A stretch of DNA of 64,000 nucleotides from Rhodococcus rhodochrous. GTDB taxonomy: Bacteria > Actinomycetota > Actinomycetes > Mycobacteriales > Mycobacteriaceae. Both the position numbers and the translations under genes were made by a program. Below the pieces are notes generated by a model, which worked only from the letters and a program-made list of their open reading frames with translations, was not told the origin of the DNA and searched no databases. Position 1 is the stretch's first letter. Each line of letters starts with the position of its first letter. Positions 22,804-64,000 of this stretch are shown piece by piece. The stretch spans positions 3,844,001 through 3,908,000 of the forward strand of contig NZ_CP027557.1 of the NCBI RefSeq assembly GCF_014854695.1, given 5' to 3'.

Positions 22804-22915
22804 CAACTTCTCGACGGATATTTGTCACATTGGCCGAGGTTGCCCGTTACCGGCAGTTTCGCTTGAATCAGCTCTGGACATACGTCCAATTCGTTCTCTA
22901 CACGGAGGTCACCAC
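22804..22915 (+). promoter_or_regulatory. Upstream region of the 21-codon micro-ORF
   Basis: 112 nt. TTGTCA near 22821 and GTTACC 18 nt later form a weak promoter candidate. TGGACATACGTCCA near 22876 is a short inverted repeat. The region is locally less GC-rich than its neighbours and ends in a strong GGAGGT ribosome binding site. Confidence 0.35.
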
Positions 22916-22981
22916 ATGCTTCTCGGTTCGCTCGACGCGCTCATCAGCAACGTCCTCAATTTCCTGGACTGGCTGATCTGA
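22916..22981 (+). CDS. 21-residue amphipathic micropeptide (PorH/PorA-like character)
   Basis: 22 codons including the stop, with ATG 6 nt after GGAGGT. The product starts MLLGSLDALIS and ends NFLDWLI; it has only Asp charges (net about -2). On a helical wheel Leu, Ile, Val and Phe fill about 160-320 degrees, while Asp7, Asp18, Ser11, Asn15, Asn12 and Ser5 fill the opposite side, so it forms a near-perfect amphipathic helix without a signal peptide. A strong terminator follows 17 nt after the stop. A mycolyltransferase gene lies convergent next door. Small acidic helical channel proteins PorA/PorH of corynebacteria share these traits and are mycoloylated on Ser. Homology is not shown; expression is likely, function inferred. 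Confidence 0.6.
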   Translation: MLLGSLDALISNVLNFLDWLI

Positions 22982-22998
22982 CGAGCATGTGAGAACGC

Positions 22999-23040
22999 CC
23001 GAGGGGGTGAGGTCGCGGACCTCACCCCCTCGGTGACTTT
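22999..23040 (+). terminator. Strong intrinsic terminator behind the micro-ORF
   Basis: A perfect 16-bp stem (22999-23014 with 23018-23033) with a 3-nt loop is followed by TGACTTTT. It ends the micro-ORF transcript on the plus strand and may also stop readthrough from the convergent mycolyltransferase. Confidence 0.9.
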
Positions 23041-23060
23041 TCGAGCGCAGCGCTCTCGGC

Positions 23061-24101
23061 TCAGGCGCCGATGGCCTCACCGAGCACGGGCCACGAATCG
23101 TGCAGGGCCTCCTGCCAGTAGCCCCAGGTGTGGGTGCCGTCGGGCCGGACCGAGTAGGTCGCCTCGACCCCGGCTGCGTCCAGCGCACCGCGCAGTCGCG
23201 TCGTGCAGTCGTTCACGCCGGCCTCGATGAGCCCGAGCAGAGCCACATCGGGAAGGACGGCGACACCGTCCTGCTCCCATGCCTTCAATTCGTACGGACC
23301 CGGGACACCACTGCTCGTGGAGACGTACACGGCCTTGCCGCGCAGCTTCTCGGCGTTGAGCACGACATCCTGTTCGGTCCAGTGCTCACCGGCGACCGGT
23401 CCCCACATGTTCTCGACTTCGCCCCCGCCGAACGCGACGACGGTCTCCGCGTAGCGCGAACCGATATCCGACGCGGTCTCGGCGCATCCGCTGTACGAAC
23501 CCACCGCCTGGTAGAGATCGGGCGCCTGCTGCGCCAGAGCCAGCGCCGACGTCGCCGACATCGACACACCGGCGATCGCGTTGCGGCCGCTCGCGCCGAG
23601 CGTCTCGTCGACCACCGACGGGATCTCCTCGGTGAGGAAGGTCGTCCACTTGTTGCGTCCGAGAACGGGATCGTCCTCGAGCCAGTCGGTGTAGTAGCTG
23701 AACGCGCCACCGACCGGAGTGACGACGTTGACGTTCTTGTCACCGAAGAATTCCACGATGTCGGTCTGCTCACGCCAGGTCGCGCGGTCCAGTCCCCCAC
23801 CGGCACCGTTGAGCAGGTAGAAGACCGGTCGCGGCGCGCTCGTGTCGGCCGGGCGCAACACCTGAAGCTCGATGGTGCGTTCCATCGACGGCGAGTACAC
23901 GAACAGCGACCAATCGCGGTCGGTGTGCTTCTCGATGCGTTCGACAGTCGCGCTCTGCGACCGGGTCTCGCCGGTCGCGGCGACCGGGAGATCCTCGGCG
24001 TGGGCGACCGCGGCACCGGGCAGGACCAGCGACGAGACGGCGACCGCCCCGATCGTCCCCATCAACGCAAACCGTCGTGCGCGCACATTCGTTCCCTTCA
24101 T
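23061..24101 (-). CDS. Secreted mycolyltransferase (antigen 85 / corynebacterial Cmyt type), copy 1
   Basis: 346 residues. A signal peptide (about 1-35, cleavage after AHA) precedes an antigen-85-type esterase fold. The nucleophile elbow [12 protein letters not shown] carries Ser180; [12 protein letters not shown] forms the oxyanion region, and the catalytic His is in GTHTWGYW. It transfers mycolic acids to trehalose, arabinogalactan or proteins outside the membrane. The ATG at 24099-24101 overlaps the truA stop (ATGA), which decided this start over TTG two codons earlier. It is the last gene of the ribosomal alpha operon strand and faces the micropeptide gene. Confidence 0.93.
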
Positions 24102-49478: not shown

Positions 49479-50549
49479 TCAGTCCGAGAGACCGAGGGCC
49501 TTTTCGAGGACAGGCCACGAATCCTTCAGGTCGTCCTGCCAGTAACCCCACGAGTGGGTGCCGGAGTCGCGGAAGTTGTAGGTGGCGGGGATGCCCAGCT
49601 GGTCGAGGCGACCACGGAGGTTGTGCGTGCAGTAGTTGGTCGCAGCCTCGATGACACCGCCGACGACGATCTGGTTGGCGAGCACGTCGACCTCACCGTC
49701 GATCTGCGGGCCGTTCAGGGTGTCGTGGACACCCGGCAGTCCGGTGCCGTTGGAGATGTACAGATCGAGCCCGCGCAGCTCCTCGGCGTGCACGTAGGGG
49801 TCGTTCTCGACCCAGGCCGGATCATTGAGCTCGCCCCACATGTTGCGGGTGTCGCCGCCACCCCAGGTCTCGACGACGAGCTTGACGAACTGCTGACCGA
49901 TCGGGTCGGAGGTCTGCGCGCACCCGCTGTAGGCCGCGACGCCCTGGTACAGGCCGGGGGCAGCGATGGGCAGCTGAAGGACGGACGTACCCGAGGACGA
50001 CAGACCGGCGATCGCGTTGACGCCGTTGGTGCCGAGCGCGGCGTCGATCAGCGGCGGGATCTCCTTCGTCAGGAAGGTCTCCCACTTGTTGACGCCGAGC
50101 TCCGGGTCCTCGTTCTTCCAGTCGGTGTAGTAGCTCCACTTGCCGCCGACCGGCGAGACGACGTTGACGTTCTTGTCCTTGAAGAACTCGATCGCGTCGG
50201 TACGGAAGCGCCAGGTCGCGCTGTCCTCGCCGCCGCCGGCGCCGTTGAGGAGGTACAGCGTCGGGCGCGGTTCGCTCGTGTCGGCCGGGCGCCAGACGTC
50301 GAGCAGGATCTCCTTGTCCATCGAAGCGGAGTACACGTAGACCAGCAGCTGCTGCTCGCCGTAGTTCTCGATACGGGTGATCTTGGAGCCGTTCTCGCTG
50401 GTCACCGACTCGATCGGCTGAAGCGTGTCCGCGACCGGGTCCGCCCCGGCGGTCACGCCGCCGAAGAACAACGGCAGGGCGACGACCGCCGCGGAGACCG
50501 CAGCGAACCTCACCTTCCGAGCTCGCGTCCTCGACTGGACAACCTTCAT
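49479..50549 (-). CDS. Secreted mycolyltransferase (antigen 85 type), copy 2
   Basis: 356 residues. A signal peptide (about 1-36, cleavage near TAGA/DP) precedes the esterase fold: [17 protein letters not shown], nucleophile region AIAGLSSSGTSVLQL with Ser in GLSSSG, and catalytic His in GTHSWGYW. The ATG at 50547-50549 is preceded by GAGGAGG at 8 nt, a strong site. It shares long blocks with copy 1 at 23061-24101 (KNVNVV, YYTDW, PLY/DLYQ, YSGCA). It transfers mycoloyl groups in the outer envelope. Confidence 0.94.
   Translation of the reverse strand: MKVVQSRTRARKVRFAAVSAAVVALPLFFGGVTAGADPVADTLQPIESVTSENGSKITRIENYGEQQLLVYVYSASMDKEILLDVWRPADTSEPRPTLYLLNGAGGGEDSATWRFRTDAIEFFKDKNVNVVSPVGGKWSYYTDWKNEDPELGVNKWETFLTKEIPPLIDAALGTNGVNAIAGLSSSGTSVLQLPIAAPGLYQGVAAYSGCAQTSDPIGQQFVKLVVETWGGGDTRNMWGELNDPAWVENDPYVHAEELRGLDLYISNGTGLPGVHDTLNGPQIDGEVDVLANQIVVGGVIEAATNYCTHNLRGRLDQLGIPATYNFRDSGTHSWGYWQDDLKDSWPVLEKALGLSD

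Positions 50550-50659: not shown

Positions 50660-64000
<13,341 letters not shown>

Follow-up and report, generated by a model that had tools for sequence, protein, structure and literature searches.

Does a reading frame of only 21 codons, set between two larger genes of Rhodococcus rhodochrous, encode a peptide, and does that peptide work in the mycolate envelope as do PorA and PorH, the small channel proteins of Corynebacterium? The original prediction, made from the letters of a 64,000-nucleotide stretch of DNA (the window), proposed a short amphipathic peptide that may be mycoloylated, next to a mycolyltransferase.

Structure of the locus

The ORF (MLLGSLDALISNVLNFLDWLI followed by TGA) occupies positions 22916 to 22981 of the forward strand, and its ATG at 22916 stands 6 nt after a Shine-Dalgarno sequence, GGAGGT (22904 to 22909). 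A gap of 17 nt separates the ORF from a GC-rich hairpin on the same strand, found by hairpin scan, with a 16-bp stem and a 3-nt loop (22999 to 23033) and then TGACTTTTCG; folding of 22980 to 23045 gave a shuffle z-score of −5.8. Upstream, an APH-family phosphotransferase-like gene (PF01636; 21937 to 22803, forward strand) forms the syntenic flank. Downstream, a mycolyltransferase gene (PF00756; 23061 to 24107, reverse strand), whose best solved match is Cmt1 of C. glutamicum, has its stop at 23061, 79 bp from the peptide ORF. The hairpin possibly terminates both convergent genes. A leader peptide or attenuator was rejected, as the downstream gene is convergent rather than co-oriented. The start, ribosome site, terminator with its tail, and convergent enzyme about 80 bp away all agree with the original prediction, as do the charges of the peptide (Asp7 and Asp18 only), the lack of a signal peptide, and the amphipathic helix (hydrophobic moment, 0.36; permutation P, 0.0065). 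Ser5 and Ser11, which had been named as possible mycoloylation sites, are both present.

Position 22804, from which the feature had been drawn, is merely where the intergenic gap opens; the first element of the putative promoter lies at about 22840, where a sigma-A-like pair, TTGCCC (22840 to 22845) and TTGAAT (22863 to 22868), was read by eye on the forward strand at a spacing of 17 nt. TTGCCT and TTGAAT at 17 or 18 nt also occur in copies L002 and L003. A scan for E. coli-type promoters found none at the peptide locus. Directly 3′ of the hexamers, the palindrome TGGACATACGTCCA (22875 to 22888, forward strand), of which GGACN4GTCC is kept in other copies, could possibly be a hairpin at the 5′ end of the mRNA or an operator.

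Among ATG-initiated ORFs of 16 to 35 aa with GGAGG 4 to 9 nt upstream, this is the sole one in the window, both strands included. Under an order-2 Markov null, 2.15 ORFs of this kind are expected per window; none with a hydropathy of at least 1.3 appeared across 20 simulated windows, and the peptide scores 1.4.

Conservation and selection

A direct sequence search found the peptide in 7 of 18 genomes of the genus. With the orthologous mycolyltransferase (assigned by score) as the anchor, the window's site, here site 1, could be read in 14 genus genomes. Ten of these hold an intact ORF, each exactly 21 codons long with a ribosome site, at identities to the window peptide down to 43%. These ten orthologues, which were located by position rather than by similarity, share M1, L3, S5, L6, L14, L17, and L20 without exception; of the two candidate serines, Ser5 is thus kept in all ten and Ser11 is not conserved. 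Remnants are present in three genomes, one without start and stop (G002), one without tail and terminator (G014), and one cut to eight codons (G007), and site 1 of G001 holds neither peptide nor remnant. The mycolyltransferase persists in all four genomes in which the peptide is broken or absent. In the remaining four genus genomes, the 1.5 kb past the acyl-CoA dehydrogenase gene contains neither the anchor mycolyltransferase nor a family peptide.

The original prediction had held that frameshifts or stop codons in close relatives would speak against it, and it had called for a check of synteny and synonymous-site bias. Of 14 genomes, 10 have the frame intact and 3 have it disrupted; the counts are thus mixed, and selection must decide. 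In 12 orthologous pairs from eleven groups, a total from which one three-genome group's third pair and the pair of site-2b variants (see below) are left out, 50 of 245.8 synonymous sites and 18 of 525.2 nonsynonymous sites have changed, a nonsynonymous/synonymous ratio of ∼0.17 (Fisher P, 1.7e−13, with sites treated as independent). We conclude that the ORF is translated and selected. Conservation of length, place, and sequence in relatives, together with purifying selection at the codon level, confirms that a gene for a 21-residue peptide exists beyond chance. Some copies have a strong hairpin at either end, which might suggest a small RNA or a terminator region with an accidental ORF; codon-level selection and the fixed length, ribosome site, and start at several loci make this exceedingly improbable.

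Distribution of the family

To the 401 genomes of the bacterial family we applied a profile of nine site-1 peptides, and 11 further places were read, ten of which hold members; the other, in G269, was rejected as a chance match. Members elsewhere are 21 to 32 aa long and lie at unrelated loci: MVLGSLAATLFTLLAGLGILL adjoins an HxlR regulator in R. ruber, and MLLGSLALTLGGLLAALGIIL and its relatives lie between enoyl-CoA hydratase and thioesterase genes or beside a hydrolase gene. The window's genome (6.09 Mb) has, outside the window, a second member of 32 aa (L104, 7179 to 7274) with a mid-peptide Pro and two leader stem-loops. HxlR-type regulators, with thioesterases, occur near copies at two unrelated kinds of locus (L072, 3302 to 3823, and L104, 8123 to 8605, by Pfam; L105 and L075 by eye), which may be coincidence.

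A profile of fourteen peptides matched 21 of the 401 genomes. Short-frame copies account for 15 of these (13 of the genus plus G099 and G110); in the other six, the matches lie within frames of at least 400 aa and were taken as chance, and other profile matches inside long frames were likewise dismissed. The copies in G110 (L077, 4079 to 4141) and G099 (L079), each single and well formed, come from two further genera of the bacterial family and may reflect either spread or a relic. An order-wide profile search (298 genomes; E, 0.05) matched six genomes, two of this genus and four in frames of at least 503 aa. A DNA pattern of ribosome site and start matched 22 places in 13 of 18 genus genomes and a looser one matched 24 places in 18 of 381 family genomes, only in this genus and in g10; the reversed control of the former and the control of the latter gave none. 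The looser pattern is present in 5 of 14 sampled g10 genomes, whose peptides are 27-mers resembling those in named Prescottella records. The strict pattern was met 21 times in a public species collection. Fifteen of these stretches are in Rhodococcus or Prescottella records, and each opens an ORF of 21, 27, or 32 aa (for L121, translation covered the first of two matches); the remaining 6 belong to unrelated records and open unrelated ORFs of at least 59 codons. Genomes possessing any copy have it at one to three places, and neither profile nor DNA pattern found a copy in 5 of the 18 genus genomes.

The family is conserved and selected at the codon level; its genes have a ribosome site of their own and, in most cases, a terminator of their own, and losses affect single loci. 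It is too short for routine gene callers and has no match in the four protein-family libraries searched (Pfam, NCBIfam, PADLOC, and PHROGs). Literature searches by sequence strings or topic, with most subscription papers outside their scope, gave nothing on these peptides among the matches listed; the family is apparently undescribed.

Type I toxins such as Ibs and Fst have about 20 hydrophobic residues, are dispersed and intergenic, and are controlled by antisense RNA. The family peptides, too, are small, hydrophobic, dispersed, and intergenic, and they decay at single loci while the flanks stay, as tiny membrane toxins repressed by antisense RNA might. Unlike these toxins, the family showed no link to mobile elements: viral contigs, phages, and plasmids gave no match, the phage and plasmid searches being weak for so short a query, and a mobile or phage origin was rejected. 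Moreover, the ribosome site is no more structured than those of 14 control genes (P, 0.37), and no Rfam family reached its gathering score, which says little for an undescribed RNA; Rfam matches to animal microRNAs, far under the gathering score, are hairpin artefacts. A toxin of this sort is improbable.

Anatomy of the peptides

For comparisons across loci, a set of 32 copies was collected by a ribosome-site motif plus M-[LIVH]-[LIF]-[GS]-S-L, which excluded one 28-aa copy in L075. As this filter demands Ser5 and Leu6, their presence in the set is not independent evidence; the unfiltered count is that of the ten site-1 orthologues. Among 18 distinct 21-mers (MH variants and 27- to 32-mers excluded; positions 2 to 6 fixed by the filter), positions 10, 13, 14, 17, 20, and 21 hold only L, I, or V, and positions 7, 11, 12, 15, and 18 are mostly small or polar. 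The spacing 3-6-10-13-17-20 is of helix type and forms a single stripe of large residues. In the window copy and its nearest relatives, D, N, S, and H form the opposite face, with moments of 0.34 to 0.40. For 11 of 13 uncharged 21-mers, the moment does not exceed permutation at the 0.05 level, while the five 27- to 32-mers exceed it. A length of 21 to 32 aa leaves no room for a signal peptide.

Acidity had been counted as a trait shared with PorA and PorH; this falls away, since 18 of 23 distinct nonvariant peptides carry no charge. The same fact bears on a second idea in the original prediction, a secreted leaderless surfactant, extended here to a signalling or antibacterial peptide. Phenol-soluble modulins of staphylococci are leaderless peptides of 20 to 26 aa that form an amphipathic helix with a charged face and leave the cell by a dedicated transporter. 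Similar length and a leaderless start link the family to them, and the window copy is an amphipathic helix; unlike modulins, which belong to another phylum, most paralogues lack a charged face and would hardly dissolve, and no exporter was recognised beside the loci read. We give the modulin-like reading little credence.

Four copies at another place, site 2b, have lost the hydrophobic tail and retained the frame. These variants (L078, 5518; L092; L080; L095) are ORFs beginning MH[F/L]GSLAL that keep the ribosome site and a SigF-type string and have Leu residues replaced by Pro, His, or Lys; they may represent decay or a new form.

Control regions

Among the copies of the set, a 3′ hairpin with a z-score below −2 follows 27 of 31 that could be evaluated; the 32nd has no 3′ sequence. 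The idea of a 5′ hairpin shared by every copy was rejected, as only 9 of 32 reach z < −2. Of the 32 copies, 8, from three kinds of locus, have a mismatch-free GGACN4GTCC at −39 to −58. TGGACRTACGTCCA occurs once in the window's genome, so that no regulon can be read from it, and the operator reading was set aside. The string G(T/G)(G/T)T-N13-17-GGGTA(T/C), defined after the sequences had been inspected, starts at −85 to −88 in 8 of 32 copies versus 1 of 914 window tiles; six of the eight copies are site-2b orthologues, four of them tail-less, and the window copy has the sigma-A-like hexamers in its place. The string resembles SigF/SigB promoters, and this suggests that some paralogues may be used in a stress-dependent manner.

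The neighbouring mycolyltransferase

Compared with solved relatives, the convergent enzyme scores 258 bits to Cmt1, 156 to PS1, and 98 to antigen 85A. Cmt1 is reported to be the only isoform that mycoloylates polypeptides, PorA and PorH among them, and mycoloylation sites are described as having no strict motif (PMC11066868); because of this latitude, Ser5 is compatible with mycoloylation, which is no proof of it. Seven more of the genome's nine mycolyltransferase matches were tested; four prefer Cmt1 (two of them scoring above the peptide's neighbour), two prefer PS1, and one prefers antigen 85C. Cmt1 preference is thus found in 5 of 8 tested enzymes, and since paralogues share it, it is not special to the peptide locus. 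Another mycolyltransferase in the window (49479 to 50549; 276 bits to Cmt1, above the peptide's neighbour) has no leaderless hydrophobic ORF near it. Positions 50660 to 64000 hold, on the reverse strand, a frame of more than 4,400 codons that looks by eye like a non-ribosomal peptide synthetase and reaches the window edge.

The convergent mycolyltransferase is suspected to be the peptide's partner. At the family's other loci, a mycolyltransferase was found in none of 27 records (2 to 14 kb, partly overlapping), in a search whose positive control was found. These loci favour a different account, a self-packing helix of the plasma membrane that tunes the membrane, an enzyme, or a transporter and has no link to mycoloylation. 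Most members are uncharged, 21 residues at 1.5 Å each span the core of the plasma membrane, and SigF-type promoter strings are present at some copies. AcrZ and KdpF are micropeptides of this style. No partner gene recurs at the loci read, and such a helix would leave unexplained why leaderless peptides recur at mycolyltransferase loci (see below); we consider this account rather unlikely.

Micropeptides at other mycolyltransferase loci

An unfiltered scan of 196 records revealed hydrophobic ORFs of other sequence beside mycolyltransferases as well. By one set of criteria, fixed after the first such locus had been seen, leaderless hydrophobic short ORFs are present at 21 of 30 mycolyltransferase loci versus none of 18 acyl-CoA dehydrogenase loci (Fisher P, 6.6e−7), and with site 1 excluded at 11 of 16 versus 0 of 18 (P, 1.5e−5); these P values are overstated, because nine of the eleven loci are orthologous, beside groEL, the criteria are post hoc, and a 28-mer in L030 is doubtful. 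In this genus, leaderless micropeptides are a recurrent feature of mycolyltransferase loci, and their sequences fall into several unrelated kinds.

In four genomes (two of them checked by Pfam), the gene order is groEL (Cpn60), two mycolyltransferases (PF00756), a 25-aa ORF (MGSTTITEIITFIFSLLSQSAEFLS), a 30-aa ORF (MGSITNGLEVINQLIGLVLAIAPALLTGSL), and a hairpin. Neither peptide has a match in Pfam, the sole library searched for them. When 181 family genomes were searched with a profile of each peptide, 11 (six of the genus and five of other genera) had adjacent full-length copies of both, except that the 25-aa match in G029 is partial (E, 0.045) and adjoins its 30-aa partner. The pair behind groEL with one or two Cmt1-like mycolyltransferases was observed in L196 to L199, L038, L200 to L210, and L230 to L243; in L239 and L240, from two g45 genomes, a 25-mer is followed by 33- to 37-mers and a third peptide of 23 to 24 aa, all beginning MGS. 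A profile search found no such pair in the window's genome. There, an acidic 35-aa ORF (MDVIELIGSALELLGGTELLGTLLETGSAVLGLGQ) with a ribosome site and a hairpin lies downstream of the groEL-side mycolyltransferase (groEL read by eye), and close relatives have single acidic 35- to 36-mers at the same place (L041, 984 to 1091; L037; L042; L044). In R. ruber, a 27-aa ORF lies directly upstream of another mycolyltransferase (L040, 2615 to 2698); near yet another, in G011, is a glycine-rich ORF of 74 aa (L038, 3248). In eight pairs of groEL-side peptides, 26 of 182.3 synonymous and 28 of 501.7 nonsynonymous sites have changed (P, 6e−4); two pairs are without differences and one has nonsynonymous changes only, so the codon evidence is weaker than that for the window family.

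Proposed function

The reading that we lead with, tentatively, by analogy with the corynebacterial proteins, is that the locus is a stand-alone gene of a new leaderless micropeptide family that would work like PorA/PorH, as a short helix in the mycolate envelope. One helix would be made from an mRNA of about 165 nt; its Leu/Ile/Val stripe (3-6-10-13-17-20) would lie in lipid, and its small or polar face (4, 5, 7, 11, 12, 15, and 18) would pack against other copies. The peptide would cross or enter the membrane without a signal, might be O-mycoloylated at Ser5 by a Cmt1-type enzyme, and would act by self-association in the envelope; with its D/N/S face, the window copy could form the wall of a small pore or rest on a surface.

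As to PorA/PorH-likeness, the original prediction survives in part. The selected, signal-less helix, the retention of its Ser5, and its Cmt1-like neighbour agree with it, and it is strengthened by the leaderless micropeptides at 11 of 16 other mycolyltransferase loci versus none of the controls; it is weakened by the family's other loci, which lack the enzyme, and by the Cmt1-likeness common among paralogues. Further points against an envelope helix are the tail-less site-2b copies, the moments of 11 of 13 uncharged 21-mers, the 5 of 18 genomes without a copy, and the MspA-like channels of Rhodococcus. A bolder extension holds that Rhodococcus has several unrelated outer-membrane peptides of 21 to 36 residues, O-mycoloylated (the window's kind at Ser5), that form pores or patches of the mycomembrane and are encoded at Cmt1-type genes and elsewhere. 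No smaller outer-membrane proteins would be known, and they would make up a hidden counterpart to PorA/PorH. Taken as a whole, this extension is conceivable and doubtful.

If the peptides of the family reside in the mycolate envelope, they would be its smallest proteins. Two questions would follow: by what route a peptide without a signal gets across the plasma membrane in mycolata, and what purpose protein O-mycoloylation serves beyond Corynebacterium. As ordinary membrane micropeptides they would still be a tractable set: the copies are few, each is a simple single gene, and the remnants available for comparison are clear.

Comparison with known systems

The channels described from Rhodococcus (PMC9233653) are MspA-like and have signal peptides. 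PorA, PorH, and PorACur of Corynebacterium are 37 to 57 aa long (PMC12632848 and PMC5944148), the smallest described PorA having 37 residues (PMC5944148), versus 21 to 32 aa in the window family. The porA and porH genes are reported as a tandem pair flanked by groEL2 and a polyphosphate kinase gene (PMC5944148); the window family, by contrast, consists of dispersed single genes for mostly uncharged peptides, and the window copy is flanked by the phosphotransferase-like gene and the mycolyltransferase.

The groEL-side peptides of Rhodococcus share with the family a leaderless, hydrophobic nature, a ribosome site, and nearness to a mycolyltransferase, and they differ in their unrelated sequences (a 25- plus 30-aa pair or one acidic 35- to 36-mer) and in being co-oriented with the enzyme. 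Since porA/porH are reported next to groEL2, these peptides share the porH-porA place on the groEL side, and the 25- plus 30-aa pair is a candidate for the rhodococcal counterpart of porH-porA.

The window family resembles PorA, PorH, and PorACur in being short and helical with a heptad pattern, in lacking a signal peptide, and in having a Ser near Gly; PorA, PorH, and ProtX have no signal sequences (PMC12632848). Both occur in mycolic-acid bacteria with a Cmt1-type enzyme in the genome, and the window peptide has one next door. A 21-residue helix is not too short for such a role, because the modelled PorAH pore is ∼34 Å deep (PMC12632848).
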